Of a DNA stretch of 28,814 nucleotides, positions 272 through 26,036 are shown one piece after another. Within the stretch, counting starts at the first letter, position 1. Every line of letters begins with the position of its first letter. Location: the IMG/VR virus record IMGVR_UViG_3300025907_000029, positions 1 to 28,814 of that record. One strand, 5' to 3'. Origin of the DNA: a virus. The notes beneath the pieces are model-generated. The model was not told the DNA's origin and made no database searches. It saw only the letters and a program-made list of their open reading frames with translations. Both the position numbers and the translations under genes were made by a program.

Positions 272-1450
272 ATGAAAAAGATATTCTTTATATTTAGTTT
301 TGTTCAATTATTGAACATGACTGCTCAGGCTGCTATTATACAGCCGCCTCGGACTGGTGCTCAAAGGACAACGTGGTCAGTGAGTTTTATAACTAATGCA
401 AATTATCTCACTAATTGGGCGTTAGTGCCTACTAATGCACTCACTGGTGGTAGCGGGCAGACAAATTGGAACGTTGCGGCAATCACCAACGCCGGGACCG
501 CCGCTTACTCCAACGCGACCGCGTTCGCCTTGGCTCAAAGCGGAACCATCGTCACGCAAAACAATTCCTTCTCCCTGGTTCTGAGCAACGCGCTAAAGAT
601 GGACGCCGCGCACTCGCTTTCTTTGAGTAATGCGACGGCTTCACGGCTCGCGTTTGTTGGCGCGGATAATACGGTTGGAAGTGCGGCGGGTTCAGGTGCG
701 GTGCCAGTGGACGCAGACGGGAGCGCGGCGACAGGTCCGCAGGTTAACGCTCTGTTTTCAGGGTTTGTTCAGACCAATAACAACGTAAACGCGATCACGT
801 GGTTCACTAATAACGGTGTGGCTGTTGGCGTCAATTCAAGCGGGGTTATAATCGCAACGAATTACGCGGCGGCAGGCGTAGGGATGTCTTGGAACACTAA
901 TGGGGTGATACTTGCTTATAGCGCAACTGACAACTCATTTGATGTGAGGAGCGGAACCAGCGGAGCAAGCAGCGCAAAGATTCTTGTTGCTAAAGGCGGA
1001 GGATTTGGCGGTGCTGGATTTAATGGTGCCATTAAGTTTAGCTCGGCAGACGGATCGCTTCCATGTGGATGGGATTATGCCTCCACAGGGTTTATTCCTG
1101 GAAATGACAACGAGCTTCATCTTGGAACCACAACCCGGAGGTGGAAGGACGTAAACACTTATGCGGTGCTCGAACCTGTTGTAACGAAAACCACGAATTA
1201 CACCGCAACTCTTACCGATTCAATAATCCTCGTAAACGGAACAACGCTGACAATGACTCTCCCGACCGCTGTAGGAAACACGAGCAAGACTTTTACCTTT
1301 GAGGAAATAGCGAACTCAACTGGGACGATCACCAACTCGAACGGCTCGCAAAATATCAATGGGTCACTGAGTTACTCGCTATCGGCGCAATACAAAAATG
1401 TGAAGGTGGTCAGTGATGGCACGCAATGGTGGGTGATTGGGAACAACTGA
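272..1450 (+). CDS. Tail-fibre-like protein with a Sec signal peptide
   Basis: This 392-residue protein starts with MKKIFFIFSF and has a hydrophobic core ending near AQA (about residues 19-21), which looks like a cleavable Sec signal peptide. The middle is rich in Asn, Thr, Ala and Gly. Near residue 280 is the segment HLGTTTRRWKDV, like the 'LGs..rrWkdv' motif of many phage tail fibres. The last 100 residues resemble a fibre-tip beta module ending in WWVIGNN. A signal peptide on a virion fibre is odd. It may instead be an exported adhesin-like protein made in the infected cell. The gene follows its neighbour by one base with no Shine-Dalgarno sequence, and its stop overlaps the next start (1448-1452). 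One palindrome copy (301-317) lies in codons 10-16. Confidence 0.8.
   Translation: MKKIFFIFSFVQLLNMTAQAAIIQPPRTGAQRTTWSVSFITNANYLTNWALVPTNALTGGSGQTNWNVAAITNAGTAAYSNATAFALAQSGTIVTQNNSFSLVLSNALKMDAAHSLSLSNATASRLAFVGADNTVGSAAGSGAVPVDADGSAATGPQVNALFSGFVQTNNNVNAITWFTNNGVAVGVNSSGVIIATNYAAAGVGMSWNTNGVILAYSATDNSFDVRSGTSGASSAKILVAKGGGFGGAGFNGAIKFSSADGSLPCGWDYASTGFIPGNDNELHLGTTTRRWKDVNTYAVLEPVVTKTTNYTATLTDSIILVNGTTLTMTLPTAVGNTSKTFTFEEIANSTGTITNSNGSQNINGSLSYSLSAQYKNVKVVSDGTQWWVIGNN
301..321 (+). repeat. Dispersed 7-3-7 palindrome, copy 1
   Basis: TGTTCAA-TTA-TTGAACA at 301-317, followed by TGAC (one change from AGAC). It lies inside the signal-peptide codons of the gene at 272, in the frame that reads V-Q-L-L-N. 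Confidence 0.85.
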
Positions 1451-2469
1451 TGAAGCATTTTCTTCCATTACTTTTCGCGCTTTCCGCACTTGCCCAAGTG
1501 CCCCCGAACGATCCCCCAGTGGGACCGCCGCCTGATCCAGTCTGTGTACCTTTCATCGACAATTCCGCATACTGCCGCGTTGAGTACGGTAAATGGTATC
1601 TGACGAATTGGAACAAAACCTCGGACCTTTATCTGAACGGTGTCTATCAATCAACAGAACCAGCGGGCAACGCCTCGATTGACTTTTTGCCGTGGCCTGC
1701 CAAGCGCAACATAACAGTCGGAATAGCTGATTCATCACATGGAATATCACTGGATAACATCATTACCAACATTTGTTCAGCTACAGTGTTTCACTCCACT
1801 CCCGACGCAGCAGGAATTAGAGACTGTGTTAGCGCAGGGTGCAATGTTATCAACATCTCATGGTTTACCACAGTCCAAGGCCAGCCAGCAACCGATTTGT
1901 CAAACGCCTGTTACGAGGCGACTCAAGCGGGGGTGATTCTGGTTTGCTCGGTTCCAAACGTGAACCAAAGCATTGATGATACTGTGGCGCTTCCAGCTTC
2001 ATTGGTGATGCCGCTACTAATCCCGGTTTGCTCAAGCACAAGGCAGGATGCGCTTTATGCTCCAACGGCGATTGGCAGTAATGTCGTGGCTGCTCCGGGA
2101 AGGGTTATCTGGACACAGGCGCCAGATGGCTCACCGGCTTATGGCTCAGGTTCTTCTTATGCTGCACCTATCGTTGCCGGTGTTGTTACATGGCTATTGG
2201 GACAATTTGAGCAGACTCCTACCGTTATCGTGCAGGCGATTCGACAGGGCTGCACACCTATAAGTTCTAGTGTCTTAGGGCGTGTTTCTATCGCTGGCGC
2301 GGTCAACGCTCTTAGACCAAAGGTCAAGCTTTCAGTGCTTGGAATCGACGGGGCCATGTACATGGTCGAACGTTCTACTGATTTAGTTGACTGGAATTAC
2401 TTTACAACCACGACCGCAAACACACCCTGTGATGCAACTCCAGGGTTTTATCGAGCAAGAATACTATAA
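1450..2469 (+). CDS. Secreted subtilisin-like (S8 family) serine protease
   Basis: I chose the ATG at 1450, which overlaps the previous stop (ATGA), because it gives the signal peptide MKHFLPLLFALSALA; an upstream ATG at 1426 would add eight residues and spoil it. The 339-residue protein has subtilase landmarks: HG at 97-98, the strand NVINISW at 132-138, an oxyanion-type Asn170 in SVPN, and the nucleophile motif GSSYAAP with Ser236. The likely catalytic Asp94 is only three residues before His97, far closer than in typical subtilases, so activity is uncertain. The C-terminus (about 291-339) carries a module of the type 'VERSTDLVDW...FYRARI', common in verrucomicrobial secreted proteins. Possible roles are host-envelope or capsule breakdown, or release of progeny. 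Confidence 0.82.
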   Translation: MKHFLPLLFALSALAQVPPNDPPVGPPPDPVCVPFIDNSAYCRVEYGKWYLTNWNKTSDLYLNGVYQSTEPAGNASIDFLPWPAKRNITVGIADSSHGISLDNIITNICSATVFHSTPDAAGIRDCVSAGCNVINISWFTTVQGQPATDLSNACYEATQAGVILVCSVPNVNQSIDDTVALPASLVMPLLIPVCSSTRQDALYAPTAIGSNVVAAPGRVIWTQAPDGSPAYGSGSSYAAPIVAGVVTWLLGQFEQTPTVIVQAIRQGCTPISSSVLGRVSIAGAVNALRPKVKLSVLGIDGAMYMVERSTDLVDWNYFTTTTANTPCDATPGFYRARIL

Positions 2470-2476
2470 AAAACTT

Positions 2477-4573: not shown

Positions 4574-4609
4574 GTGTAAACAACATAGTAGGAAGCTGCA
4601 TGAAGCAAT

Positions 4610-5038
4610 ATGAACTGGGGACTTGTATGGAAAATAGTATCAGAACTATGCAAAGCATTACGATACATAACCTTTCGGAAACCAAAGCGTGGTGTCTTTC
4701 TTATCGTGGAGGACGACCCACGTGATGCCGAATTGCTTGAATACCGGGTCAAAAAACGGGGATGGAAATGTGAAATTGCCACCTCAGGAGAAGTTGCGGC
4801 AGGGCTTGTCAAACATACGTTCTACCCTGTGGTCTTTGTTGACATGCGACTGCCGGGGATGTCCGGCGCAGCGTTGGTGCGCGTACTATCAAGAGAGGCA
4901 CCAAACACCAACATTGTTGTTGTCTGTGGAGAGCCTCAAGACCTCTCAAACATCCCCGACGGACAGTTTGTTTGCGTAATGCGGAAGCCGCCCACATTAG
5001 AGGCGATTGAAGACATGTTACATAAGTTAAAACTATGA
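4610..5038 (+). CDS. CheY-like response-regulator receiver domain protein
   Basis: This 142-residue protein has a receiver domain from about residue 28 to the end. The acidic pocket E34-D35-D36, the phosphoacceptor Asp78 in VDMRLPGMSG, and Lys126 in MRKP are all present. The conserved Thr/Ser that couples phosphorylation to the conformational switch is Cys106 here (VVVCGEP). No output domain follows. Residues 1-27 form an unusual amphipathic, partly basic leader with three Trp/Tyr residues that could touch the membrane. The stop overlaps the holin start (ATGA at 5035-5038), tying it to the lysis-like cassette. Possible roles are sequestering host phosphate flow or timing lysis; both are speculative. 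Confidence 0.88.
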   Translation: MNWGLVWKIVSELCKALRYITFRKPKRGVFLIVEDDPRDAELLEYRVKKRGWKCEIATSGEVAAGLVKHTFYPVVFVDMRLPGMSGAALVRVLSREAPNTNIVVVCGEPQDLSNIPDGQFVCVMRKPPTLEAIEDMLHKLKL

Positions 5039-5316
5039 AGAATCTATTAACTAATTGGAAGACGACCTTCGCGGGTATTTCCATGATTATCACCGCTGTT
5101 ACACATCTAGTGTTTATGGTCAACAGCGGTGAGGCTGACCCGGCGGTTTGGAAAAACGACCTTATAGCTGTAGCAGGTGGCCTAGGTCTCATATTCGCGG
5201 GTGACGCGACACAATCTCAGAAGCAAGTCGATGATGCAAAAGAGCAGGTTAAGACTGCTATTGAGACTCAAGACACAAGTCATATCACTCAAACGAAAGA
5301 CGAAACAAAAGTATGA
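5035..5316 (+). CDS. Putative holin
   Basis: This 93-residue protein has a short N-terminus (MKNLLTNWKTTFAG), a first hydrophobic segment at about residues 12-29, a loop with Asp and Trp, a second segment (LIAVAGGLGLIFAGDA) at about 43-58, and a hydrophilic charged tail. This matches small two-segment phage holins, which open the inner membrane at lysis. The 'GGLGLIFAGDATQS' part resembles a widespread holin-like family. Four-base overlaps on both sides (5035-5038 and 5313-5316) indicate translational coupling with the receiver protein and the lipoprotein. The holin call rests on topology and context; no endolysin was recognised next to it. Confidence 0.72.
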   Translation: MKNLLTNWKTTFAGISMIITAVTHLVFMVNSGEADPAVWKNDLIAVAGGLGLIFAGDATQSQKQVDDAKEQVKTAIETQDTSHITQTKDETKV

Positions 5317-6642: not shown

Positions 6643-6795
6643 ATGTGGCGATATCTATGCCAAGTTTTTAGTTTATGTGTAGCGGCTATCGTTTTTGTCT
6701 TATTCATATGGGTAGTAGTGGTGGTCATCTCGGCTTTAACTTTGCCGCTTTTAGTGATAGCTTGGTACGAAACTTGGCAAATAAGGAAGAAGTGA
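6643..6795 (+). CDS. Very small membrane protein (50 residues)
   Basis: An ATG at 6643, two bases after the terminator T-run, opens a 50-codon frame ending at TGA 6793-6795. The product is strongly hydrophobic: a stretch from about residue 8 to 41 contains VAAIVFVLFIWVVVVVIS and LTLPLLVIA, enough for one long or two short membrane segments. It ends in a positively charged tail (WQIRKK). A random frame of this composition is unlikely. It may be a second holin, an antiholin or a superinfection-exclusion protein. The palindrome at 6796 begins at the base after its stop. Confidence 0.55.
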   Translation: MWRYLCQVFSLCVAAIVFVLFIWVVVVVISALTLPLLVIAWYETWQIRKK

Positions 6796-6816
6796 TGTTC
6801 AATTATTGAACAAGAC
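6796..6816 (+). repeat. Dispersed 7-3-7 palindrome, copy 2
   Basis: TGTTCAA-TTA-TTGAACA at 6796-6812, followed by AGAC. It starts right after the stop of the small membrane-protein gene and ends two bases before the ATG at 6819. If it folded in mRNA it would bring the GGAAGAAG stretch closer to that ATG. Confidence 0.88.
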
Positions 6817-6818
6817 AT

Positions 6819-15200: not shown

Positions 15201-17759
15201 GACGACCTAGGTAAAGACTATGACCCACTTAATTCTACATTCGAGGTGAGTCTTAGTGAGCAAGACTATCAGACCCTTAGAGAGTATGGAGTTGAGCCGT
15301 ATCAGGAACCGCCGCCTCAAGCTAAGGGTATGGAGCTTCATTATGATAAGACATTGCAAAAAGTCTATGAGGAGTTGACAGGTAGTAAAGGTGAGCCGAT
15401 TAGTCTTGGTGAGCATAAGATGGCGTTGAATCCTAATGAGCCTAACGTTGATGAGTTTGGTCAGTGGACCGCCGAGGGTCCCACGGATGAGAGTAGGGTC
15501 CGAAAAGACCTATACTTCCGCAATGAAGATGGCTCGCCCAAGACTGACATCACCGGCAAGCTTTATCCTTTAGAAAAGACCAAAGAAAGGTTCTCCTTAG
15601 TGGATAAGGATAAGCCTGACACGGATGTTAAGTATCTGTATGCTGGTATGAAGATACCGGGTCTTGATAAGGTTTGGGAAAAGCTTAAGGTTGCCGTTGA
15701 TCCTACGAAAGCGGTCGAGGCTGCAAAGGAACTTGTGCCTAAGGTGCTTGACCAAGTCTATGGTCATGGCGTGAAGCGGGACTTCAGTGAAAGTATTGAA
15801 CACCTCAAGGCGGACGTGGCTGGCTATAGCGCACCTCACCATGTGGCAGTCAGTGAGACCTTGGCTAACAAGATGATCGAGTATGCCGCCGCCGACCAGA
15901 CCGCTTCATTACCAGCAGCCACAAGGTCATTAGCTCCAACCTATAAAAAAGACGCTATGATGTCTTGGCTCAATGAAGGCGTCAAACAAGGGGTGTATAA
16001 ATTCGGTAGCCCAGACTTGGCTCCTATGGCTGGCGGTAAGGCAATGGAAAAGATACCGCTCCGCCTTAGCATCAAAGGGCAACCTAAGGGTCAGAACAGC
16101 CTTTATGTCAGAGCCGACCTTGCACCCGAAGTTAAGCAAGTCGTTAGTGGTCAAGGACGTATTCCAAGCGAAGGTGTTCAATTTGTCCTAAAGGCTCTCA
16201 CGAAGTTACAGCTTATGGCTCCCACCGACTTAGTCGTTCATTCGGCTAATATGTTTGGCACTGTAGCTCGAAGCCAAGGTAAGTATCCTAACATAGCCGC
16301 CGACCTTGTGGCTAATATGCCTATCGTTAAGCAGATAGATGCAGCACAGAAGCTAGCTTTTGGAGTCATGAGGATTATCTGTGATAATCCGGCGACTCAA
16401 GATCAGTTGTTAAAGTTATCTAAACTTGATGCTTTAAGGCCAGATGCCGTGGAATACAACAGCATTTCCTCTCGTATTATAAAGACCTTTGACAGAGCGG
16501 GGCGTATTGTCCGGGACCAAATGTTCGATAATGGTGTTAAAATGGGTCTATGGAAAGACACGCCTTTAAATCGTCGTGAGTTTGTTAATAAGATGGGTCA
16601 GTATAATACTAAGATGATGACGCATGCGATGGCTACATTGCGTAACTATACATCTCAGTTCGTGGTCGCCGGACGTCGAATGAATCGTAATGCACGTGAG
16701 GCAATACTTATGCAGAACGAACTCAAGGCGGCAAGTCCCGGTGCCTATGCTCAGATGAAGTTTAATAACATCTTGTCCGTCTTGGCGACATGGATAGGCG
16801 CTACAGTCGTGTTAAACATGGCCTTTACTGGTAAGCCTTTCGGACGTCCAGGCACGCCTACCGGCAAGGTCGATACTGGCAAAGACAGTGATGATGGACG
16901 CCCGTTAACAATCGACTTGGCCAAGACTGATTTGTCCCGTAGAGGTGCTAGAAACCTTGGCATTGAGGCGGTCATTAACGGTATCAAGCAGAAGAAAAGC
17001 GTAGGTGACACCGCATCGGATGCTATATGGGACATCATTAATGGTCACCTTAATCCGTGGATGGGTCCGCCAGTCCGTCCTTTCGACGAGGCACGTAAAG
17101 AGTATGCCGTCTCGCATGACGCAAATGCAGCCCTTTGGAAAGGTGCCTCGAAGTTTAACCCTATGACAGTAGCCTTAGAGAAGGACGAAAAGGGTAAACA
17201 TAAAGGGGCCGGAGAGTACGCAATGCAACTAGCCGGGTCGGTAGGCTACGGCAAAGGTTACTTCTTAACTCATATTCAACGTCTCGAAAAGGACGCAGGC
17301 AAGCCCGTCAATGAGATGTCTCTCAAGGAACGAGTTCTAGCCGAGCAGCACTTGAAAGAAGTCGAACCTCGGCTATCTGAGGAAGTACGTGCAAAGACTG
17401 CCACCCGCCCTGTGATGGAAGAGTATAAGACCGCCAAAGAGATTCGCGATAGCCTGTCGAAGGCTGACCGGGGCTTCCTTGAGTCCCGTGAGTTGTCAAT
17501 CCCTGGGTTCCGTAACATTATCGAGGTCGCCAAGACCGAGTTGCATCTTACACCAGAGGAGCAAGACCGCTATAAGCAGTATGTTAAGGAGGAATATGTG
17601 AAGGCTATCGAGTTCATGCGTAAGGACGTTCAAAGGTTCGACGCGTTGCCTAAGGTCGGCCAACAGCAAGCCTTCATTAAACTGATGATCGGTGCTAAGA
17701 AGGCGGCACGTGGTCGACTTCTTAAGGAGATGGACTCTATTCAATCTGGTCCAAAGTGA
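12252..17759 (+). CDS. Giant polyvalent / internal virion protein (1835 residues)
   Basis: The N-terminus carries the octapeptide LPPGFVLE twice (residues 4-10 and 16-23), and LPEGFVLE recurs at 326-333. A Pro-rich linker follows. Several modules typical of phage 'large polyvalent proteins' come next: a unit with GFTTKDGNFVTREEAAKIAR (about 546-565), an EVQSDW motif near 874-879 (as in polyvalent-protein domains), and a long helical C-terminal region from about 1330 with a membrane-like segment (ILSVLATWIGATVVLNMAF, about 1507-1525). Length, position after three small helical proteins, and one late hydrophobic segment fit a T7 gp16-like ejection protein. No transglycosylase motif was found. 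The 3' end overlaps the convergent LuxR-type gene by 23 bases. Confidence 0.85.
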   Translation: MPLPPGFVLEEQPKGLPPGFVLEPESPVQKLNKTQLAALPQFKLEQPSWLERNAATLYSMVEPFTPQGLLSQSNRLLGLPDPTIDGRPLEQYSPLEPLLGPPQPQPYQPFTGGPPIPYPEHPDVLRGASQAMREKLLEYTSLGNIMTYPAFVNPVARLGLAGKMTYDTGQRLQQIPQQATELGSDPNASAGDLAKLLTGGAIDLGAAYSMAKFAGPQPPPAQSLGAEAFKASQRPGDVPIDVESTVSPPELPLLGTGQKLLDYNAPRFAVNSMGHTADLSQLTPKEQTELLRGPREFVPREQYVRPAQAEPQIVKPAATTGQILGLPEGFVLEDQSSPLVKGPESEASVIQEPKAPEGVEAEAVPQEGQPLKTAAELTSDPGHALHGGIPIKDLADQFKKIRPYLSQMNDNGLKTVYSEHGLSDQADVPYVVFSKPTEAQVEQIQKAAEHVGGSVQVREGRTGVYFKGGTQKEVMQDWADFTHKLTTKHELHAGAKIEKEDIKTLPSISKSAYKDKEGNIYTGLWHYNALEKVPQHLQKDAKAGFTTKDGNFVTREEAAKIARKAGQMYSRAADQYDMGGLTKLDSAHLKLDTTDMLEHKLHAGAEIEKEDLQKVVTNLKDREKDLRGGTYQMSIPRMMVTPGKEGNGFSDSLKPVDGTQLWNRAKNKHAAEASMLEEMGVADKIKGQRLSPAEAAKIVQENGPKVEVKKFGDSQEKVHPKVAQYRQLLHEFYDNLKNDKLMEFNQAGYDNSFTPKKGLNKSYLASRGWTSAEIKTAETYWNLAKDPEVKQAKEQRNENQAHWSSVAPKPEKDMPGYVEIAVTKDAGKVHRGFEGTEQGNRQLFPASHSFPPNTLAWTRAFEDKYGDIKIGHVVEVQSDWAEQRRKMVETMKQRGATQEDIVRAREGEGQPRILSRAEAVNNDPLLAHYERLAAKATIEHFKSQGAKAIFIPDSKTAMMTEGHDRLLGNEYQIDNTKESRQALDDLGKDYDPLNSTFEVSLSEQDYQTLREYGVEPYQEPPPQAKGMELHYDKTLQKVYEELTGSKGEPISLGEHKMALNPNEPNVDEFGQWTAEGPTDESRVRKDLYFRNEDGSPKTDITGKLYPLEKTKERFSLVDKDKPDTDVKYLYAGMKIPGLDKVWEKLKVAVDPTKAVEAAKELVPKVLDQVYGHGVKRDFSESIEHLKADVAGYSAPHHVAVSETLANKMIEYAAADQTASLPAATRSLAPTYKKDAMMSWLNEGVKQGVYKFGSPDLAPMAGGKAMEKIPLRLSIKGQPKGQNSLYVRADLAPEVKQVVSGQGRIPSEGVQFVLKALTKLQLMAPTDLVVHSANMFGTVARSQGKYPNIAADLVANMPIVKQIDAAQKLAFGVMRIICDNPATQDQLLKLSKLDALRPDAVEYNSISSRIIKTFDRAGRIVRDQMFDNGVKMGLWKDTPLNRREFVNKMGQYNTKMMTHAMATLRNYTSQFVVAGRRMNRNAREAILMQNELKAASPGAYAQMKFNNILSVLATWIGATVVLNMAFTGKPFGRPGTPTGKVDTGKDSDDGRPLTIDLAKTDLSRRGARNLGIEAVINGIKQKKSVGDTASDAIWDIINGHLNPWMGPPVRPFDEARKEYAVSHDANAALWKGASKFNPMTVALEKDEKGKHKGAGEYAMQLAGSVGYGKGYFLTHIQRLEKDAGKPVNEMSLKERVLAEQHLKEVEPRLSEEVRAKTATRPVMEEYKTAKEIRDSLSKADRGFLESRELSIPGFRNIIEVAKTELHLTPEEQDRYKQYVKEEYVKAIEFMRKDVQRFDALPKVGQQQAFIKLMIGAKKAARGRLLKEMDSIQSGPK
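12332..12352 (+). repeat. Dispersed 7-3-7 palindrome, copy 3
   Basis: TGTTCAA-AAA-TTGAACA at 12332-12348, followed by AGAC, inside the giant virion gene (codons 27-34, V-Q-K-L-N-K-T). A weaker palindrome, AGTTCAA-AC-TTGAACA, follows at 12373-12388. Confidence 0.85.
13722..13754 (+). repeat. Duplicated LHAGAxIEKED element, copy 1
   Basis: Encodes residues 491-501 (LHAGAKIEKED) of the giant virion protein. A near-identical peptide is encoded 330 bases downstream (14052-14084). Together the copies bracket a separate domain. The bases differ mainly at third codon positions, so the duplication is not recent or is under coding constraint. Confidence 0.75.
14052..14084 (+). repeat. Duplicated LHAGAxIEKED element, copy 2
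   Basis: Encodes residues 601-611 (LHAGAEIEKED) of the giant virion protein. See copy 1 at 13722-13754. A looser relative (YLYAGMKIPG) occurs further on, near 15637-15666, just ahead of a helical region. Confidence 0.75.
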
Positions 17760-17949
17760 TAAGCTTCCGCTTCACGGCGGCACAAAGCATGGAGCTAGTG
17801 TTATGACAGCCAAGCTTGCCATAGATATTCTCACGATGGTGCATGGCCGTCCGTAATGAGATCTTAAGATGGTCAGCGACCTCTTTGTTTAGTTTACCTT
17901 TACATAGTAACCCTAAGACTTCCAGTTCCCGAGGAGTAAGTTTGCCCAT
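17737..17949 (-). CDS. Stand-alone LuxR/GerE-type HTH transcription regulator
   Basis: This 70-residue protein consists almost entirely of a LuxR-family DNA-binding domain. It has LTPRELEVLGLLCKGKLNKE (4-23), then VADHLKISLRTAMHHRENIY and GKL (24-46), and a final VKRKLITL. The usual 'TVktHrxxI..KL' helix reads TAMHHRENIYGKL here. No receiver or sensor domain is fused. It is the last gene of the minus-strand operon, 64 bases after the DUF3987 gene, and its 3' end overlaps the end of the giant virion gene. It may switch between early and late transcription. It is a candidate reader for the dispersed palindrome, which has two 7-base half-sites (inference). Confidence 0.85.
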   Translation of the reverse strand: MGKLTPRELEVLGLLCKGKLNKEVADHLKISLRTAMHHRENIYGKLGCHNTSSMLCAAVKRKLITLDQIE

Positions 17950-18013: not shown

Positions 18014-19237
18014 TTAAATTTTATTAGTTACTTTCACTTCGCCCTTCTCGATTTGTTCAGCCAGTTTCTCAGGCATCACGATACAGATTTCATCTCCGCT
18101 CACATCCTTATACACGCGCTTAAAGATTTGCCTAGTTTCCTCAAGATGCCTCACTATCATACAGTATTCCATAGGAGTCATATCAGCTTGTGATAGTTTC
18201 TTAAGGAGCCGCTCGGTCACTATTCCGCCATGCTTCTTGACAAGTTCTAAGAGACGTTGCTGAGGCAGTGCAAGTTCGTTACGGCCCACAGCCACAGATA
18301 GCTTCGGTAGGTTCTCCTCGATAGACTCTAAGAAGGCGATAGCCGTCGATAAGAGTTCCTCTGTAAAAATCAGCTTAGGCTCCGGTTGAGCGACCGCCAG
18401 CATCATGGCTACCTTCTGTGCGAGGACATCCTTGGCTTCGTAAAATCCAGCCATGACAGTGTCATCAGGAATAGGCAGCGCTTTGAACCATTGGTCAAAG
18501 AAGTCCCGTGTCTTCTGACTGTCCCACGTGAAAGAGCCTGCAACCTGGGCTATCTTCTCAAGATGTTTAGCGCACCAGTCCCGCGCGGCGAGTGCTTCGG
18601 GACTAACATAAGGAAAGGTTATGCGCTCCGCTTGCTCAGTCTCATAGACATAAAGCATCCGGCGACTGAAGCCACCAGAGATGACCTTGAGTTTTAACTT
18701 ATCAATGATCCAGTCAGGAGTTTCACAAGCTAAGATGTTAATGCAAGGGTGCAAAATAGTCTGTAAGCCATGTTTAATAGTGCCCGCGTTGAAATGCTTC
18801 CGGTCATAAATGTCAGTCAAGAACTCAATCATGCCTTGAGGGTTAATAGACATGAAGTTCTTAAGTTCGTTAATAAAGAATGCCATCGGACGAAACTCGA
18901 TACTTTGGCCCGTCTCGTCGGTATAAATGCGGGCTGAGTCGGCTTCTGCTAGGCGGGTCACGATAGCCTCACGACTCATCACACTAGAGCCTAATGGATA
19001 GGTCGGGAAGACCTCGATAAAAAGTTCTGAGGCTAAGTCCTTGGCGGTTCCTTTTCTGATGCCTTGCCTGCCGACTAAGCAGATATACATTGTAGGATAT
19101 ATCCTATAGTAGCTGTGGTCTACATAGACTTTTCTACCCATAGTCATTGATAAGATTGATATGGCGGCCCACATATGGTGGCGCTTAGGTGCCATATTTC
19201 CGCTGTTATATAGTAGATATTGCGAAATAAAGTCCAC
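18014..19237 (-). CDS. DUF3987-type ATPase, putative replicative helicase-like protein
   Basis: This 407-residue protein starts at GTG 19237, which has an AAGGG Shine-Dalgarno sequence five bases upstream and no other start before the in-frame stop. It has a P-loop variant VGRQGIRKGTA (55-65; Lys62), a Walker B-like MAFFINEL (118-125; Glu124), and an arginine pair in SGGFSRRMLYVYE (188-200), which may act in trans. This order and the opening (MWAAISILSMTMGR) match DUF3987 proteins, which stand in for helicase or primase-helicase in phage replication modules. It lies directly downstream of the UDG-PolA and ABA-sandwich genes. The C-terminal 100 residues are a helical winged-helix-like region. 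A separate primase is not visible in the window. Confidence 0.72.
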   Translation of the reverse strand: MDFISQYLLYNSGNMAPKRHHMWAAISILSMTMGRKVYVDHSYYRIYPTMYICLVGRQGIRKGTAKDLASELFIEVFPTYPLGSSVMSREAIVTRLAEADSARIYTDETGQSIEFRPMAFFINELKNFMSINPQGMIEFLTDIYDRKHFNAGTIKHGLQTILHPCINILACETPDWIIDKLKLKVISGGFSRRMLYVYETEQAERITFPYVSPEALAARDWCAKHLEKIAQVAGSFTWDSQKTRDFFDQWFKALPIPDDTVMAGFYEAKDVLAQKVAMMLAVAQPEPKLIFTEELLSTAIAFLESIEENLPKLSVAVGRNELALPQQRLLELVKKHGGIVTERLLKKLSQADMTPMEYCMIVRHLEETRQIFKRVYKDVSGDEICIVMPEKLAEQIEKGEVKVTNKI

Positions 19238-19260
19238 GTGTCCCTTGGGTTCCTCTGATT

Positions 19261-19281
19261 GTCTTGTTCAATCTTTGAACA
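19261..19281 (-). repeat. Dispersed 7-3-7 palindrome, copy 4
   Basis: On the minus strand TGTTCAA-AGA-TTGAACA (19281-19265) followed by AGAC (19264-19261). It contains the stop codon of the ABA-sandwich gene and lies just upstream of the DUF3987 gene. Confidence 0.85.
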
Positions 19282-19585
19282 TTACTTTTATGAAGGCTTC
19301 GGCCCTTTGTCTTGTAGTAGCATGCACAAGTGGGTAAGTCAACATTATGTCTTTTCCAGTGAGTTCGTCTAGTGCCCATATGTATTTAATTTGTTGCTCT
19401 ATTGACATAACCTTTTCCGCCTCGTGCATGGCGTTCAGGTCGTTGAGGTAGTCGGGAAGCGCACCGATATAGCAGAGAACGCAACCGCCCGGTGGAATCC
19501 AACGCGCTTCTCCAGTTACTCCAGTATTTCCGCGATTCCACCCGCACGCCTCAGCAATCGCTATCCGCATTTCGTCGTTAGTCAT
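19268..19585 (-). CDS. Phage ABA-sandwich domain protein
   Basis: This 105-residue protein starts MTNDEMRIAIAEACGW and contains LPDYLNDLNAMHEAEKV (43-59) and a C-terminal ATTRQRAEAFIKVM. This is the layout of the small 'phage ABA sandwich' family of unknown function, common in phage genomes of many hosts. A Cys/Gly/Pro-rich loop (IPPGGCVLCYIG) is inserted between the first helix and the PDYLND motif. Its start follows the UDG-PolA stop by four bases. The stop codon is part of a palindrome copy (19261-19281). Confidence 0.78.
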   Translation of the reverse strand: MTNDEMRIAIAEACGWNRGNTGVTGEARWIPPGGCVLCYIGALPDYLNDLNAMHEAEKVMSIEQQIKYIWALDELTGKDIMLTYPLVHATTRQRAEAFIKVMFKD

Positions 19586-19589: not shown

Positions 19590-22364
19590 TTATTCGAATG
19601 TCCCTACTTGCGAGTCCTTATCGAAAGCCCAGTTAGTACCGTATTGACCAGAGAACGGAATCTTGATGTATTGACCCGCGATGATAAGGGTGTTATCAAA
19701 GTATTGTTTAATCTTACTAATTGCCCAGGCGGTATCGGCAATGGGCCACTGTCCGAGTAGAGCGTCGTGGACCTGATGAAGAGGCTGTATGCGAAGTCTT
19801 TTATCCGTTCGATTCTCTGGGTCTCTATACAAGTTGAGGGCAGCTTTGTTTGTGGCATAGGTTGTATTTTCTTGTGGTTCATTCGCTAACGCCTCACCTA
19901 GTATCTCATTATATCGTCCGAAGAACATTCTCGTGTGACCTGAGGCGGAAGTCAGCTTCGGCGGATAAGATTGACGGGACAGTTTCTTCTCGGTCTCCTT
20001 GTGCCAAATATCCGGTTTATAACAAGCATAGACCGCTTGGCGGAAGTTCGCTACATCACCCCGGCTCATCTTAATTCGGCCTTCACTCTGGACGAAGATA
20101 AGGTCGGCAAGGCGGTCCACTCCCATTAAGTAGCAGATGCCCCATATCCCACACTTGCACATAAAGTAGTCAAAGTCCTCTTTTTTGATCTCCTTTAGTA
20201 GCTGTTTAATTTCCTCCCGTTCTTTGCCTCGCAACGAATCATTACCGTGCCGGAGCATGTACGCAATGCGCTGAGCTGGTTTAATTCTTGCCAAGAGATC
20301 GTCAAGCATAGTTCGTTCACCGAGAGCTGCCAAATGTGCTCCCACTGTCCAGCCGTCAGCGCCAGAGAGATCGCATTGAAAAAGGTAGTATCCTTCGTCC
20401 GCCGTAAACAGGTCTCGCATACCTCTTTTGAGAGGATGTCCGTCGGGCCGAAGTGGATCTTCGGAAGGTATCGTCTGGAGATTGTAACCGCTTCCGGTAG
20501 GGGAGGTATAGCAAGTAATACGTCCTGTCTCAGTCCCGACAACATTATAACCTGCACGGATTCGTCCATCTGTATCAGGATATATTTGTAACATTTGTGC
20601 TCTAGTGCGTAGAGTACCAATTTGTAAAGCGAGTTCAACGCTTCGATGCGAGGTAAGGTGACTAAGCTTAAGGAGGGCTTCGTAGTCTGTTGTGAGTTGC
20701 CCTGTTTTCTTATTAACTTGCTGCGGGAGCTTGAGTGTTTCATAAAGATAAGTTTTAAGTTTGTCTCCTTTGATATTCATGTCGATACCGAGGTCGATAT
20801 GAAGACGGCCACGTTGAGCGTCCGTGAAGTTTGCCCCACTCTTAAGTAGTGCCATATGAGTGGCATAGCATTCGACATACTCTTTCTTAGGCTGCGTAGT
20901 ATCTCGCTTATAGCACATCACAGATTGGACAAGTTTAGCCACCCCTTCTCGATTAAGACTTGGGTCAAGGCCACATCCAGATATACGGTCAAGCTCATAT
21001 TGCAACCCGTATATTTGCTCCTCAACCTGTGCTAAACGCTCCTTAGCCAAGGCTTGATTGTACCGGATACCTCGAAGCTCCATGTAAAGCATAGGGTTTA
21101 AGAGCGCGACATTAAAGTCATAATGCGCACGGCTCGGTCCTTTGAGCCATTGTGAAAGCTTGTCATTTATTTCATATGTGACGGCTGAGTCCCTCGCGCA
21201 GTATCGCCAATACGTTTCATGGTCTTCTGACGTGCGCTCTTCCTTATAGAACGGCTCAAGAGTATATAGAGAACACTGAAAGCCTAGGCTTTTCTCAAGT
21301 TCGCTATACAGTTCCCAGTGCTTAAGCATCGTATCGTCGCTGACATTCTTTATGACCATGTCATAGGAGAACTGCAAGACGAAGCGATCATATAGGCTAT
21401 TCTGTAGAACTTTAGGGATAGCTGGGTCAGCCATGACACTGGCTAGTGCCCGCCAAAGCCTCGTCTCGTCCTCGACAGAATGGATGCTTCGACCATCACG
21501 AGTAGCGAAGGGGATGGTGAAGCTGGCGGTCTCTGAGGTGGCTATAGATAGACATTTCATCCCATAAGGTCTAGACTTCTCACCGGGCTGCGGAGCCACC
21601 GCCACGTAGCCTTCGATGTCCATAGCGATTAAAGGCTTGTTGACCTTGATTAAAGAGAGCTGAAGTATTATAGAGTCAACGCTATAGTCAATAGTCAAGA
21701 CTCGCTCTGGCGGTTTCCACTCACTCGTATGTGCATGACGGGATGCTTTCTTAATGTCGAACACTAAAAGGGGCATCCACTCGTAGTTACGCAAGCAGGC
21801 TGCCGGATGATAGGCACCAATACACTTCACTCCAGGCAGTGGGGCATCCATTGACGAGACGAAAAAGGAACCTCGCCAGTCAGAGATACTATTAGGATAC
21901 GCGAAGGTGAGTCCCTCGGGGGACTTCCGCTTAGGCACATCAGCTGAACGTCCCGCCATGAAAGAATGTAAGGCGGTACCGCCAAGGCAGATGACGATAT
22001 TCGGTTTAAATAGCCGAAGGTCGTCCGCTAGCTGAGATAGCCCTTCTTGTATTTGAGGACCATTCCAGTCGAAGGCGGTCAGCTTGTTGCCGGCGGGTCG
22101 AGTCTGACAGACGTTTCCTATAAAGCATTGGTCCCGTACGATACCTGCATGGCTAAGGCACTTGTTAAGTTCTCGGCCACTGTGCCCTACGAAGGGCATA
22201 CCCTCTGACACCTCGTCTGCACCCGGTGCCTCACCTATGATAGCGATACGTGCCGTGCCGGGCTTTATCTTAGGAAAGACATTGGGGACTTTCTTGTAGG
22301 TTGTGCGGTCGACTAAGGCTGCGTCCTCCTCGAAGAACTCCTCAAAGATGTTATGTTTAGGCAT
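19590..22364 (-). CDS. Uracil-DNA glycosylase / family A DNA polymerase fusion
   Basis: This 924-residue protein has three parts. The first (about 35-215) is a family 4-like uracil-DNA glycosylase with GEAPGADE (44-51), GMPFVG (55-60) and HPAA (186-189). The second (about 243-410) is a DnaQ-type 3'-5' exonuclease with Asp249/Glu251 in MDIEG, Asn322-Asp326, and Tyr388/Asp392 in YCARD. The third is a PolA domain with TETGR (611-615), motif A Asp665 in CDLSGADGW, motif B around Lys737-Tyr745 (KCGIWGICYLMG) and motif C His866-Asp867. The essential carboxylates are kept, but motif residues elsewhere are unusual: HDA instead of HDE, and Trp741 where F, Y or L is usual. It is the probable replicase. 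The glycosylase domain could bind or remove uracil in the template. ATG at 22364, four bases after the preceding stop. Confidence 0.93.
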   Translation of the reverse strand: MPKHNIFEEFFEEDAALVDRTTYKKVPNVFPKIKPGTARIAIIGEAPGADEVSEGMPFVGHSGRELNKCLSHAGIVRDQCFIGNVCQTRPAGNKLTAFDWNGPQIQEGLSQLADDLRLFKPNIVICLGGTALHSFMAGRSADVPKRKSPEGLTFAYPNSISDWRGSFFVSSMDAPLPGVKCIGAYHPAACLRNYEWMPLLVFDIKKASRHAHTSEWKPPERVLTIDYSVDSIILQLSLIKVNKPLIAMDIEGYVAVAPQPGEKSRPYGMKCLSIATSETASFTIPFATRDGRSIHSVEDETRLWRALASVMADPAIPKVLQNSLYDRFVLQFSYDMVIKNVSDDTMLKHWELYSELEKSLGFQCSLYTLEPFYKEERTSEDHETYWRYCARDSAVTYEINDKLSQWLKGPSRAHYDFNVALLNPMLYMELRGIRYNQALAKERLAQVEEQIYGLQYELDRISGCGLDPSLNREGVAKLVQSVMCYKRDTTQPKKEYVECYATHMALLKSGANFTDAQRGRLHIDLGIDMNIKGDKLKTYLYETLKLPQQVNKKTGQLTTDYEALLKLSHLTSHRSVELALQIGTLRTRAQMLQIYPDTDGRIRAGYNVVGTETGRITCYTSPTGSGYNLQTIPSEDPLRPDGHPLKRGMRDLFTADEGYYLFQCDLSGADGWTVGAHLAALGERTMLDDLLARIKPAQRIAYMLRHGNDSLRGKEREEIKQLLKEIKKEDFDYFMCKCGIWGICYLMGVDRLADLIFVQSEGRIKMSRGDVANFRQAVYACYKPDIWHKETEKKLSRQSYPPKLTSASGHTRMFFGRYNEILGEALANEPQENTTYATNKAALNLYRDPENRTDKRLRIQPLHQVHDALLGQWPIADTAWAISKIKQYFDNTLIIAGQYIKIPFSGQYGTNWAFDKDSQVGTFE

Positions 22365-22368
22365 AGGG

Positions 22369-22572
22369 TCATGACTGATCTTTATTGTGCATTATTTGTT
22401 CACTGAACGCCTCGATTATAGCTTCCTGTATATTCGCATGCAAATGATCGAACTCAACCTCACGCATTAGGCCACTACCAGAGGTGTGCTTGACTATCTT
22501 GACTAGATTAAAGTCCCGCACAGTCACTTCGTAGCAATCGCCATTGTAAAATGCGTGAAAGATTGTGTTCAT
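22369..22572 (-). CDS. Small protein of unknown function
   Basis: This 67-residue protein starts MNTIFHAFYNGDCYEVTVRD and reads as a short beta-rich unit followed by a helix (NIQEAIIEAFSEQI). It is acidic and soluble, with no recognised family. Its start overlaps the HNH gene stop (ATGA at 22569-22572) and it ends four bases before the polymerase start, so it belongs to the replication operon. Confidence 0.65.
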   Translation of the reverse strand: MNTIFHAFYNGDCYEVTVRDFNLVKIVKHTSGSGLMREVEFDHLHANIQEAIIEAFSEQIMHNKDQS

Positions 22573-23024
22573 ACTTGATTCAAAGTGGCAAACTCTTTGT
22601 GCAATTGTAGAGCAGCTTGATTGTATGCTACAGCAGCTTCTTCTTTAGAGTCAAAAAGTCCGATATGAATACTTTGTTTATGGTGTGTGATTGTAGCGCG
22701 CCATTTACGACTTCGTTTATGCCAGCCCACTCCACGTAATCCAGTTGTATTAGTTTCATACTGCTTTGTATTACATGCATTCTGTGCTGCTGTAGCAATT
22801 CGTAAGTTCGAGCGCACATTATTATGTATGTTTTGGTCTTTGTGATCTACCCTTTGTCCTTTAAAGACTTCAATAATAAAATGAGACAAGATTAACCATT
22901 CGTCTTTATTGACGTGGCTCTTTACTGTGTTATCAGTGCAATGCCATTTAAATGTTGACAGGACATCAAAGACATTATCGTCAACGTAAATACTTTCACC
23001 ACAATTACACCTAAATGTTTTCAT
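22569..23024 (-). CDS. HNH homing endonuclease with AP2 DNA-binding domain
   Basis: This 151-residue protein has an HNH core: His48, VDHKDQN (59-65, with Asp60-His61), and NNVRSNLRIAT (68-78), the usual '..NR.sNLR..t' element with Arg to Val. An AP2 domain follows at about 95-149 (GLRGVGWHKRSRKWRATITH, then FDSKEEAAVAYNQAALQLH). This architecture is common in free-standing phage homing endonucleases. A CNCG pair at residues 6-9 is extra. The gene is AT-rich compared with most neighbours and is fitted into the operon by four-base overlaps at both ends (23021-23024 and 22569-22572). It is likely mobile. No split host gene is seen beside it. Confidence 0.88.
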   Translation of the reverse strand: MKTFRCNCGESIYVDDNVFDVLSTFKWHCTDNTVKSHVNKDEWLILSHFIIEVFKGQRVDHKDQNIHNNVRSNLRIATAAQNACNTKQYETNTTGLRGVGWHKRSRKWRATITHHKQSIHIGLFDSKEEAAVAYNQAALQLHKEFATLNQV

Positions 23025-24514
23025 TGAAACTTAAAGTTTGGGTTTATTTTAAGATACATCTTCTTTATATTTTCTAATAAGTAATTGTAATGAGTCTCTT
23101 GCTTTTCCACGGCAATTACATTTCGGTGCATACGTAGCATTTGGATTACCATTGAACCACGACCTGCAAAAGGTTCCAATATGGTTTGACCTTGAATGCT
23201 AACTGCATTAGTTAATAACTCAGTAACTTCATATGGCTTTGCAAATTTGTGTCCTGTATCCATTACCGCCTGAGCGTTGTCAGCTAAGAAGTCTGAACGA
23301 TTAACTTTATTCGCTAAGGTTGCTCCTGGCTTACGCGCTATGATGGCAATTTCATAGTTCTTTGTAAAGTTATATTGTGCACACTGATTCATAGCATGAG
23401 GCTTTAGCCACACAAAAGGCCATCTTTGAACTGCAAAGCCAACTTCAGTTGCAATGTTATACATAAGTTGCCAGTTCATTAGGTCAGCAAATGTAATTAC
23501 AAAGGCGTTATCCTTTGTGCACAACCAAGCAGCGGGATAAAACGACTTAATGAGTTCTAAGTTCTCATCCACGTCATGCTCATCTGCTATCGTGTCTAAG
23601 TCAGCCAACCCACCATGAGGATTCTGCTGATTTAACATTTCGATATCAATGCCGTACGGAATGTCTGTGATGATGTGGTCAAACCGGCTACGTTGTTCGG
23701 GCATTAACATGAAGTCAATACTATTCATGTGAATGACCCGATTAGACACATAAATTACCTCAGACAACTGCTTAGCTTCGGCTTGTTTATTAGCCCAGTA
23801 TTCCTCGAAGGGGACCGTATTTAATGGGTTGCTATTATAGCGTTCACGTTGCTCAGCCAAGGCGTCAGGCTCGGCTTCAACTTGCTGGACAAAGTCAATA
23901 AGTTGCTTTGCGTGAGTTTCTTCTACGTTCTTATTCGCGTTCTCTCGATGCCGTTTTGCAAGCTCTGCTTGAAGTCGGTCCTGTTCGTCTTTCAAAAGAC
24001 CTAAACGATATGCTTCTGCGGCACTTTGAAAGTTCCAAAAGCGACGTTTATCTGAAGGCAAAGCTTGCTCAAGTTTAAGCCTCTCTGCTACACGCAAGAC
24101 ATAATTTATAGTTCCTAACTCCATTCCAAACGCTTCTGCTGCTAGTCTCTGTGACCAGCGCCAACCCTCTAGTGCACCGCGACGTTTCTTGAGTCGGTGA
24201 ATTTCTAAGATTGACAAGCATTCCTCTTGCCATGTCATTGACTTCCGTCGAATGTTCTCCTCAAGTTCAAGCTCATGGAGTTCGTCTTGAGACAAGGTTT
24301 CGACATAACACACAGAGACATGTTCTAAGGCAAGCTTCTGACATGCTGCGTAGCGACGTCCGCCGGCGACGAGTTGCTGGCTTTGGTTAAGAACGATTGG
24401 CTGTATAAGGCCGAATCTAGCTATAGACGCCGCCAAGCCTTCGATATCACCAAGGTCTTCGCGAAGGCGGTCCTTGACTATGATGTCTTTTAAAGGTATA
24501 GTAAAGTTTCTCAT
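23021..24514 (-). CDS. ParB-like domain / DNA methyltransferase fusion
   Basis: The start at 24514 (MRNFTIPLKD) makes an ATGA overlap with the preceding gene; an ORF start at 24562 lies inside that gene. The product is 497 residues. Residues 1-100 form a ParB/Spo0J-like N domain with LVAGGRRYAA (48-57) and the ELELEENIRR box (81-90), then a helical linker to about 250. From about 255 a methyltransferase domain has a motif IV variant TDIPYGID (283-290; usual DPPY) and, later, motif I ILEPFAGRGS (445-454). This is the permuted order of beta-type N4-cytosine/N6-adenine enzymes. It likely methylates phage DNA against restriction. DIPY instead of DPPY may affect target or activity. No cognate endonuclease is adjacent. 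Confidence 0.85.
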   Translation of the reverse strand: MRNFTIPLKDIIVKDRLREDLGDIEGLAASIARFGLIQPIVLNQSQQLVAGGRRYAACQKLALEHVSVCYVETLSQDELHELELEENIRRKSMTWQEECLSILEIHRLKKRRGALEGWRWSQRLAAEAFGMELGTINYVLRVAERLKLEQALPSDKRRFWNFQSAAEAYRLGLLKDEQDRLQAELAKRHRENANKNVEETHAKQLIDFVQQVEAEPDALAEQRERYNSNPLNTVPFEEYWANKQAEAKQLSEVIYVSNRVIHMNSIDFMLMPEQRSRFDHIITDIPYGIDIEMLNQQNPHGGLADLDTIADEHDVDENLELIKSFYPAAWLCTKDNAFVITFADLMNWQLMYNIATEVGFAVQRWPFVWLKPHAMNQCAQYNFTKNYEIAIIARKPGATLANKVNRSDFLADNAQAVMDTGHKFAKPYEVTELLTNAVSIQGQTILEPFAGRGSMVIQMLRMHRNVIAVEKQETHYNYLLENIKKMYLKINPNFKFQ

Positions 24515-24879
24515 TCTGTATATGGTAATAATTTGCTGTCTAAAGGGCACATTAGAAAGCATTGTTTTCGTCGATTCCGTGCTATAAGCAACTCAGCTTG
24601 TACGCCTTTAGACTCTTTCCAACCATCTAGAGTTAAGATAACAAAAAGGTCACATTTTCGTATCATTAGCTCGTCATACTCAGCCCAGTATTGCCAGTCA
24701 GTAGGTAAAGTAGAGTGAATCGCAATAGGATGTGTATGTGTAATAGGGCTAAACACAAAATAGCCTTGCTTAATTAGTTGACCGGCGGCTAAAGCGGCTA
24801 GTTCGAACCGCATAGTTTGAACGTCTGGATAAGCGTCCGTATAGGGACTAGCCAAGTAACATAAGAGTCGTGCACTCAT
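24511..24879 (-). CDS. DUF1937 / nucleoside 2-deoxyribosyltransferase-like protein
   Basis: This 122-residue protein has LASPYTDAY (9-17), FSPITHTHPIA (43-53), WAEYDELMIRKCDLFVILTL (65-84) and DGWKESKGVQAE (85-96; candidate catalytic Glu96). These are the features of the DUF1937 group, which has the nucleoside 2-deoxyribosyltransferase fold and cleaves or exchanges bases on nucleosides. It sits between MazG-like and methyltransferase genes with four-base overlaps on both sides, so it probably works in phage nucleotide metabolism. The substrate cannot be read from the sequence. Confidence 0.8.
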   Translation of the reverse strand: MSARLLCYLASPYTDAYPDVQTMRFELAALAAGQLIKQGYFVFSPITHTHPIAIHSTLPTDWQYWAEYDELMIRKCDLFVILTLDGWKESKGVQAELLIARNRRKQCFLMCPLDSKLLPYTE

Positions 24880-25253
24880 GGTTTCTTGTCAGCTCGAAGG
24901 TGGGCAGCCTTGTCACTATATTCAAAGTTCTCGTATCGCACTGCAAGTTTCTTTATGTTCGCTTCGAGGATGTCCGCGCGACCAAGATGCAGAAGCTGTC
25001 TAAGTCGTTGCATATAGAACTCTAGGTCGCCAAGTTCCTCTATGAAGTGAATGTGCATTTCAGCATTCATGTCCTTATTGTATATAGCATACTTCTTAGC
25101 TATGTCGATAAGCTCACCCGCCTCACCACAGATACCAACTGCCATGTGGAGGACTTCCATCTTGTGAGCAGAGAGGTCTTCCAAGATAAGACCGCCAGGC
25201 TTCGAAAGCTTGGCTACCATCTGAGCGTGTTTCTGTTCTATAGTTTCTCCCAT
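24876..25253 (-). CDS. MazG-like nucleotide pyrophosphohydrolase
   Basis: This 125-residue all-helical protein has the divided acidic metal site of the MazG superfamily: GEAGELID (43-50; Glu44, Glu47, Asp50) and EELGDLEFY (72-80; Glu72, Glu73, Asp76). These enzymes hydrolyse NTPs, dNTPs or (p)ppGpp-type nucleotides to monophosphates. Phage members may clean up non-canonical nucleotides or keep the host in a growth-like state. It overlaps the DUF1937 gene by four bases and the PLD gene by 16. The single domain is close to the size of short phage MazG proteins. Confidence 0.85.
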   Translation of the reverse strand: MGETIEQKHAQMVAKLSKPGGLILEDLSAHKMEVLHMAVGICGEAGELIDIAKKYAIYNKDMNAEMHIHFIEELGDLEFYMQRLRQLLHLGRADILEANIKKLAVRYENFEYSDKAAHLRADKKP

Positions 25254-25672
25254 AAAGCGTTAAAGAATTCTAGCATCGGTTGCACATGATTTTGTGCCAC
25301 GCGATACATTATGTTTAAGTTCGTTCCGTGTGTTAGATTTTGGCTACCAATGTAGATATGAGCACCATGACTATGGCGATAGCATATAAACATTTTGACA
25401 TGAATGTTAAGGCAATGTTTCTTAGCATCACTCCTAGTGTTGCAGCCTCGTTGGGCTAGGCCGTAGATAAGGCGACGCACCCGTTTGAGTGGATGTCGGG
25501 CCGCCTTGCTTTGGCTATAGGTAATGACGTCAAACTCATCATATGACGAGTTAAGATAGTCAAGAAAGCGGTCGCCATCGAAGAAAAGGTCCGGCTCAAA
25601 AGACCGCGAAAGCGGTATCATGAGACGGGTCGGGATGGCGGACGCCGGGACGTTAAGAGGATCTAGTGCCAC
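25238..25672 (-). CDS. Single-HKD phospholipase D-like protein (putative nuclease)
   Basis: This 144-residue protein starts at GTG 25672. It has one PLD-type half-site: IHVKMFICY (90-98; His91, Lys93), then IYIGSQNLTHGTNLNIMY (106-123; Ser110, Asn112). The Asp of the classical HxKx4D is absent, as in PLDc_2 proteins such as small nucleases, which form dimers to build the active site. The N-terminal half is alpha/beta (DGDRFLDYLNSSYDEFDVIT). Likely acts on DNA rather than lipid. It overlaps the DUF1599 gene by ten bases. Confidence 0.8.
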   Translation of the reverse strand: MALDPLNVPASAIPTRLMIPLSRSFEPDLFFDGDRFLDYLNSSYDEFDVITYSQSKAARHPLKRVRRLIYGLAQRGCNTRSDAKKHCLNIHVKMFICYRHSHGAHIYIGSQNLTHGTNLNIMYRVAQNHVQPMLEFFNALWEKL

Positions 25673-26010
25673 TTTGAGTCCTCACAGAGCAAGGCGATGA
25701 TTGCGTAGTTACTAAGGTCCCGCCAAGAGTCAGTGATAGACTCGTTTGTGACTTTCTTACGTCTATTCATGTAGAGGTGTTTAAGTCTCTTATACTTGTC
25801 GGACATACGGACGAGACAACCCATTGCAGCAAACTCGGCTATATTGTCTGGTCCGTAGTCTTCGTTCTTACGGTCGAATAAGAGAGCGTTGGCAAGGCTG
25901 TATCGTATGAAGTCACGAGAGACTGAGGACTTGAGGCCAAGCGTAGCACAGAGGGTCTCAATCCCTACTTTCTCGTTGACAAAGTCTAAGTCTTGTTTAG
26001 GTGTCGGCAT
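25663..26010 (-). CDS. DUF1599-type nucleotide-metabolism protein
   Basis: The ATG at 26010 gives 115 residues. A TTG at 26022 is in frame but falls inside a palindrome copy, so the ATG is preferred. Residues 40-110 contain NALLFDRKNEDYGPDNIAEF (41-60), KYKRLKHL (72-79) and DSWRDLSNYAIIALL (94-108). This matches DUF1599 / nucleotide modification-associated domain 1, a MazG-like fold often linked to modified bases or thymidylate metabolism in phages. Its place beside MazG and DUF1937 proteins supports a nucleotide-pool role. No base-modifying enzyme is visible in the window. Confidence 0.75.
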   Translation of the reverse strand: MPTPKQDLDFVNEKVGIETLCATLGLKSSVSRDFIRYSLANALLFDRKNEDYGPDNIAEFAAMGCLVRMSDKYKRLKHLYMNRRKKVTNESITDSWRDLSNYAIIALLCEDSKWH

Positions 26011-26015
26011 AGTGT

Positions 26016-26036
26016 TGTTCAAAAAATGAACAAGAC
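26016..26036 (+). repeat. Dispersed 7-3-7 palindrome, copy 5
   Basis: TGTTCAA-AAA-ATGAACA at 26016-26032 (one mismatch in the right arm), followed by AGAC. It is in the 61-base gap between the SSB-like and DUF1599 genes. The AGAC flank is on the plus strand, opposite to the direction of transcription here. Confidence 0.82.

Follow-up and report, generated by a model that had tools for sequence, protein, structure and literature searches.

The virus record IMGVR_UViG_3300025907_000029 was analysed over its entire length of 28,814 b (the window), which is a fragment of a phage genome of ~45-50 kb; related genomes measure 43-50 kb. Five copies of the palindrome TGTTCAA-N3-TTGAACA are dispersed over the window, and we consider that they are probably distributed loading sites, resembling parS or the Noc-binding site (NBS), for a ParB/Noc-type clamp of the phage's own. 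The most likely reader of these sites, with strong support, is the phage ParB protein, encoded here as a ParB-methyltransferase fusion at 23021-24562 on the minus strand. The computational results behind this proposal are the sites themselves, their symmetry, even spacing and positional conservation, the covariation between the sites and one helix of the protein, the match of its fold to Noc and ParB, and the lack of ParA and integrase genes among the related phages.

A symmetric 27-bp site in the window

A scan of the window placed the palindrome exactly at 301, 6796, 12332 and 19265 and with one mismatch at 26016, confirming the positions and sequences given by a first-pass annotation of this DNA; beyond these five, no match with up to two mismatches was found in the window. 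With up to one mismatch allowed, 200 shuffles gave a mean of 0.01 sites and a maximum of 1, compared with the five observed, and the pattern read backwards had no match in the window. Repeat finding aligned the five copies as a 27-nt family. Every copy has the layout (A/T)GT-N2-[TGTTCAA-N3-TTGAACA]-N2-AC(T/A), a 27-bp palindrome in which 9-11 of the 13 symmetric pairs match in each window copy. The AGAC flank, which had been read as orienting the site, forms the right-hand part of an outer dyad (AGT...ACT). In the tested relatives with the same layout, the outer GT and the outer AC were kept equally (198 and 197 of 212 sites, respectively), so the flank is symmetric and does not orient the site; the AG adjoining the arm shows a mild asymmetry, being present in three of the five window copies.

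Site 1 (AGTTTTGTTCAATTATTGAACATGACT), a 27-bp palindrome, lies at 296-322, with its core at 301-317. Site 2 (AGTGATGTTCAATTATTGAACAAGACA), at 6791-6817, precedes the family c07 structural gene at 6819, with 15 bp between its centre and the gene, and this place (-13 to -18) is also occupied in five other phages whose site sequences differ. Site 3 (AGTCCTGTTCAAAAATTGAACAAGACT), at 12327-12353, falls within the large structural gene 12252-17759 (family c05), 88 bp from its 5' end; many relatives have a site at this position too. Site 4 (TGTCTTGTTCAATCTTTGAACATTACT), at 19260-19286, is upstream of the primase/helicase gene 18014-19237(-) and overlaps the stop of 19268-19585(-), and site 5 (AGTGTTGTTCAAAAAATGAACAAGACT), at 26011-26037 with one core mismatch, is directly upstream of a nucleotide-modification-associated gene, 25663-26010/26022(-).

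Lineage-specific sites at conserved places in related phages

Relatives were gathered from IMG/VR with the window's UDG-PolA protein as the query; this product of 19590-22364 joins a uracil-DNA-glycosylase (UDG) superfamily domain to a family A DNA polymerase. The first search yielded 14 loci and a second one 80, from which a further 56 records were examined, and the comparison set comprised 57 related records of tailed phages; in three of them (G009, G010 and G011) the UDG-PolA match is split over two genes. Sites in the relatives were searched for with a de novo gapped-palindrome finder that was blind to the window motif, and its output was compared with shuffles. Most of the 57 records have a dispersed, lineage-specific palindrome family of their own, with the same dyad build and far above shuffles, and most hold 4-16 copies. 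The arms include TGYTCAG, TGCTCAA, TGCCCAA, CTTCAGA, TTGTCCA and GATTCACA, together with ATTCAC, GGTTCTT, GGTCATT, GGTAA-N7-TTACC and TTCTGT; an outer GT...AC and a YCA core are common to many relatives' sites, and the inner arm depends on the lineage. The finder recovered nine GTCCCAA-type copies in Desulfofustis phage LS06-2018-MD01, a ParB-bearing member of the family, and no dispersed palindrome family in lambda. Codon periodicity in high-GC genomes produced false positives, which were discarded by eye (Gordonia Bowser and Nyceirae, and records G047, G050, G055 and G056).

The arrangement of the sites was evaluated in 39 records with 321 sites. The intergenic share was 53% compared with 11% expected, and co-directional, convergent and divergent gaps were each enriched four- to five-fold (17 versus 3.5 expected for convergent and 23 versus 5.5 for divergent gaps). 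The coefficient of variation of the spacing was ~0.45 compared with ~0.85 for random placement, with p<0.05 in 21 of the 39 records; the Fisher combined p of 8e-19 is optimistic because the genomes are related. Gaps between sites had a median of 4.8 kb, and 95% were under 10.6 kb.

The sites also recur at orthologous genes although their sequences differ. Of 19 records, 12 have a site between -120 and +250 relative to the start of c05, where 1.3 would be expected. For c07, six of 13 records have a site at -13 to -18 from the gene's start, compared with 0.9 expected in a wider window, and 11 of 38 records have one near the start of the primase gene (2.6 expected). The polymerase gene is avoided (2 sites compared with 14.7 expected). 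Because many sites have changed in concert while staying at fixed places, a trans-acting reader with drifting specificity is indicated. These results bear out two suggestions of the first-pass annotation, namely that the palindrome is a dispersed protein-binding site that coding does not explain and that its positions, and not only its sequence, might be conserved in relatives.

The main rival to the loading-site proposal, because many sites lie directly upstream of starts, is KorB-like global regulation, in which ParB at dispersed sites would mainly silence or time transcription and each site would be the operator of the downstream gene or operon. KorB, a member of the ParB family, acts as a cytidine triphosphate (CTP) sliding clamp that silences the promoters of RK2 from both proximal and distal OB sites (PMC11790492), and the phages studied here repeatedly have a site ~15 bp before the c07, c14 and primase starts. 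However, the enrichment is as strong in promoterless convergent gaps as in divergent ones, indicating that promoters are not the common factor; in addition, the even spacing spans structural operons, and many sites are inside genes or in the middle of operons. We therefore regard global regulation as unlikely, although it deserves serious consideration. Much the same evidence bears on the proposal that the palindromes are RNA-level elements, folding near ribosome-binding sites into hairpins whose loop is 3 nt long: the palindromes often adjoin start codons, but convergent gaps are equally enriched, the outer bases are strand-symmetric and the sites covary with a DNA-binding helix (see below), leaving this the least probable of the explanations considered.

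Neither Phage_integrase nor a ParA-type AAA_31 ATPase (PF13614) was found in 40 records, no integrase or universal repressor was detected among 93 proteins scanned, and a search of 84,980 bacterial and archaeal genomes with conserved polymerase patterns found no relatives. The phages look virulent, which argues against both lysogeny and partition. Stoperators or operators of a lysogeny repressor, in the style of cluster A mycobacteriophages, would fit sites that are dispersed, intergenic and lineage-specific. However, the present sites are symmetric and not asymmetrically oriented, there is no sign of a temperate phage with a repressor (neither integrase nor relatives in bacterial genomes), convergent and divergent gaps are enriched alike, and the covariation points to ParB; the stoperator analogy of the first-pass annotation thus appears highly improbable.

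If these were phage-plasmids with a ParABS system, their partition (centromere) sites would also be read by a ParB-type protein, and 'Aphanizomenon phage Yong-DA' (ON073792.1), which encodes both ParA and ParB, has five dispersed copies of TGTTCAGACGTCTGAACA, with arms nearly identical to those of the window. Yong-DA resembles a plasmid more than a tailed phage (polysaccharide genes, ParA/ParB and Rep), and one of its five copies is inside parB. Canonical parS sites cluster near parB and are not spread evenly over the genome. In the present phages the ParA partner was not found and the sites are evenly spread (median gap as above) instead of clustering near parB or the origin, so a true partition system is very unlikely; as an analogy, partition sites, which had also been named at first, proved apt.

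The ParB-methyltransferase fusion as the candidate reader

The candidate reader in the window (23021-24562(-), 513 aa) is a fusion of ParB_N, a helix-turn-helix (HTH) and an N6/N4 DNA methyltransferase, with Pfam matches to ParB_N (2.3e-9) and N6_N4_Mtase (5e-15) and an AlphaFold2 (AF2) model with a mean predicted local distance difference test (pLDDT) score of 87. The N-terminal half matches Noc/ParB structures, both in Foldseek, where Noc (7nfu) is the closest fold, and in profile searches. Its ParB N-terminal CTPase-type fold, assigned by Pfam and alignment, covers residues 38-104 (24251-24451(-)), and the arginines of Box I (GxxR) and Box II (ENxxR) are present, as G67xxR70 and E99...R106 are invariant in 30 relatives. 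The central HTH typical of the ParB/Noc family is formed by residues 138-165 (24068-24151(-)) according to AF2 and the alignment; AF2 places its helices at 138-145 and 149-165, and residues 149-151 and 154 are therefore the start of the recognition helix. The C-terminal half matches CcrM/HpyAVI-type adenine methyltransferases (Foldseek, CcrM 6pbd), and the N6/N4 methyltransferase domain spans residues 295-494 (23081-23680(-)), with a DIPY motif and a PFAGRGS motif. Since this half takes the place of the canonical C-terminal dimerisation domain, the protein is better described as a ParB-CTPase-fold protein with an HTH than as a canonical ParB; its long helix 181-230 might serve for dimerisation. 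An AP2-HNH, homing-endonuclease-like open reading frame (ORF) (22569-23024(-)) adjoins the gene.

To relate proteins and sites, we computed the mutual information between the columns of ParB, polymerase, primase, exonuclease and the terminase small subunit (TerS) and ten half-site positions (1,613 columns, 33 genomes). Residue 149 of ParB ranked first of all 1,613 columns, with a mean z of 2.66 compared with 1.70 for the next, and ParB residues 140, 141, 150, 151 and 154 were at the 97-99th percentile. Four of the seven recognition-helix columns were in the top 3% (p=2.5e-5). When 24 genomes were drawn at random four times, residue 149 always came first to fourth. The identity of this residue follows the arm of the site: His occurs with GGT (4/4), Leu with TGTTCA (3/3) and Val with TTC (4/4). 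In the window it is L149 (codon 24116-24118(-)), the first residue of the recognition helix, and a profile alignment sets it opposite Noc Q158, which is equivalent to R173 of Caulobacter ParB, a residue that switches the preference between parS and NBS (PMC7383237). The covariation signal is confined to contact residues; Mantel tests over the whole domain failed to single out the HTH, which only the column-wise analysis did. These results point to the ParB-methyltransferase gene as encoding the reader, whereas the first-pass annotation had held that no gene here named it.

Polymerase, primase, exonuclease and TerS all ranked below ParB as readers. TerS, a widespread protein with an HTH of its own, had been a candidate in its own right and could read the sites as packaging or headful signals. 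However, TerS distance and site distance were not related (partial correlation -0.016, p=0.56), its mean covariation z was the lowest of the five proteins (0.11), and it is present in G047, which shows no clear sites; we give packaging signals hardly any credence. Two readers had been put forward at first, and of these the ParB-methyltransferase is supported and the LuxR-type protein is not. The latter, a 70-aa stand-alone GerE/LuxR-type HTH protein whose ORF (17737-17949(-)) adjoins a convergent junction, was rejected as a general reader because only 4 of the first 15 records have it.

The ParB part was found with a hidden Markov model in 50 of the 57 records. Four of the seven records lacking it are contigs that possibly miss the ParB-bearing part; in the other three (G016, G047 and G050), polymerase, primase and exonuclease are present and neither ParB nor clear sites were found. 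Vibrio phage VS-ABTNL-3, another family member, encodes a ParB-methyltransferase without a recognisable HTH, and no sites were found in it. A presence/absence comparison (46/7 against 0/4, Fisher p=0.0008) is only indicative owing to hand-entered counts, weaker site assignments and related genomes. The methyltransferase motif IV occurs in 39 of 50 family members and has been lost in several in which the sites are kept (G009, G011 and G028), indicating that the constant function is the clamp and that methylation is a frequent cargo. The methyltransferase half is degenerate in G009 and G011, and in G006 (L044:12470-13828) and G008 (218-793) it is swapped for another putative methyltransferase-like domain common to both.

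A motif-only scan of 2.9 million viral contigs with GTNNTGTTCAANNNTTGAACANNAC matched five contigs, one of them in multiple copies. This contig, IMGVR_UViG_3300021602_000011 (45.4 kb), has the exact window site in eight copies, and its polymerase shares only ~47-52% identity with its closest counterparts in the set. It encodes a ParB-methyltransferase with 47% identity to that of the window, and its helix reads SVGNIN where that of the window reads ELGTIN; a search from the motif alone thus ends at this type of reader again. In Yong-DA, the ParB helix SVAGIN pairs with TGTTCAGACGTCTGAACA. Elsewhere in the window, a response-regulator receiver-domain gene (4610-5038) and an S8 subtilase-like gene (1426-2469) were noticed among the structural and host-interaction genes.

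Proposed clamp loading and comparison with known systems

In the loading-site proposal, a ParB-methyltransferase dimer would read the two half-sites with its HTHs and, by homology to ParB, Noc and KorB, would close as a nucleotide-dependent clamp and slide off along the DNA. Noc is a ParB-type clamp that loads at a palindrome, closes on CTP and slides (PMC8429893), and ParB and KorB do the same (PMC11790492). With a site every ~5 kb in intergenic gaps, the clamps could reach all of the phage genome. The clamp of most members would carry the fused methyltransferase, which could methylate the genome throughout, for example as protection from host restriction; where the methyltransferase has decayed, the clamp array itself would serve, probably by organising, protecting or holding together the replicating phage DNA. 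The binding, nucleotide dependence, sliding, methylation and purpose of the protein are inferred. A bolder version, which we offer tentatively and judge to be possible, is a widespread viral 'distributed centromere': virulent phages might load ParB-methyltransferase clamps at even sites, and the sliding clamp might methylate and coat the whole replicating genome as a processivity factor for modification, with site and reader re-specialising fast in each lineage, possibly preventing cross-loading by co-infecting relatives.

Several observations weigh against the loading-site proposal. Seven ParB-encoding records (G019, G032, G035, G036, G038, G044 and G056) show no clear site family, and the many sites ~15 bp upstream of start codons leave room for gene regulation. 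The distance between sites correlates weakly with that of the whole HTH region (Mantel r=0.18, or 0.12 when polymerase is controlled for). At 25-27 bp with a 3-bp centre, the site is longer than the 16-bp parS/NBS and spaced differently, and its outer GT/AC calls for a reader as well. Some phage ParB folds bind ATP and not CTP, according to a 2025 survey of ParB-CTPase folds (PMC12704722). Finally, the window methyltransferase may not be active, because its motif IV (DIPY) is an unusual one.

If the proposal holds, the recently catalogued phage ParB-methyltransferase fusions would gain a DNA target and a testable job, and the ~45 natural reader-site pairs would be a ready data set on the evolution of ParB-type DNA specificity. 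A clamp carrying a methyltransferase along DNA would be a new way of modifying a whole viral genome. A literature search, with subscription papers and preprints outside its scope, found no paper tying dispersed phage palindromes to ParB. The fusions have the same domain architecture as the window protein and are common in phages, and the available text of the 2025 survey gives no DNA sites for them and describes their role as unknown, perhaps anti-defence (PMC12704722).

Among characterized systems, Noc and NBS of Bacillus are similar in that a ParB-fold CTPase reads scattered palindromes with its HTH and then spreads (PMC8429893), and the specificity residue occupies the same position; in the present phages, the scattered palindromes and the ParB-type HTH are both found, and the covariation suggests that one reads the other. 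Unlike the phage system, Noc is bacterial, has a membrane helix and no methyltransferase, and reads a 16-bp site without a 3-bp centre. KorB and OB of RK2 likewise pair a sliding clamp of the ParB family with multiple operators on a single mobile genome, and the role of the clamp goes beyond partition (PMC11790492), whereas KorB is a transcriptional repressor partnered with KorA, its OB sites lie by promoters and it has no methyltransferase. ParABS systems (parS, TGTTTCACGTGAAACA) share the ParB N-terminal fold, the HTH and a palindromic site; the window phages differ in having no ParA, in evenly dispersed sites of another length and centre, and in fast lineage-specific change. Cluster A stoperators are likewise dispersed, lineage-specific phage sites, but they are asymmetric, oriented with transcription and read by a lysogeny repressor (PMC4351075).

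Dispersed palindromes were also recovered in Vibrio phage R12Z (PP094284.1, Mardecavirus, 77 kb), which encodes a ParB-like protein and has 23 copies of TTTACT-N3-AGTAAA; repeated blocks near 70-74 kb of this genome also hold an even-centred variant. A close likeness is with cluster O mycobacteriophages (Corndog and Dylan), in which 34 copies of TGTTCGG-N3-CCGAACA were described, their function was called unknown, and a part of the ParB-like protein (Dylan gp89, Corndog gp90) in genome stability was considered improbable (PMC4351075). As in the present phages, a dispersed 7-3-7 dyad, often intergenic and with no tie to promoters, occurs together with a ParB-like HTH protein and without integrase or ParA (PMC4351075), and our finder recovered 38 copies in Dylan. 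In contrast to the window phages, the cluster O repeats are several times denser per genome and lack the outer GT/AC, and the ParB has no methyltransferase. The orphan 17-bp repeats of Corndog-like mycobacteriophages look like the same kind of site, and the ParB reader proposed here may answer the question, open since 2015, of what reads them.

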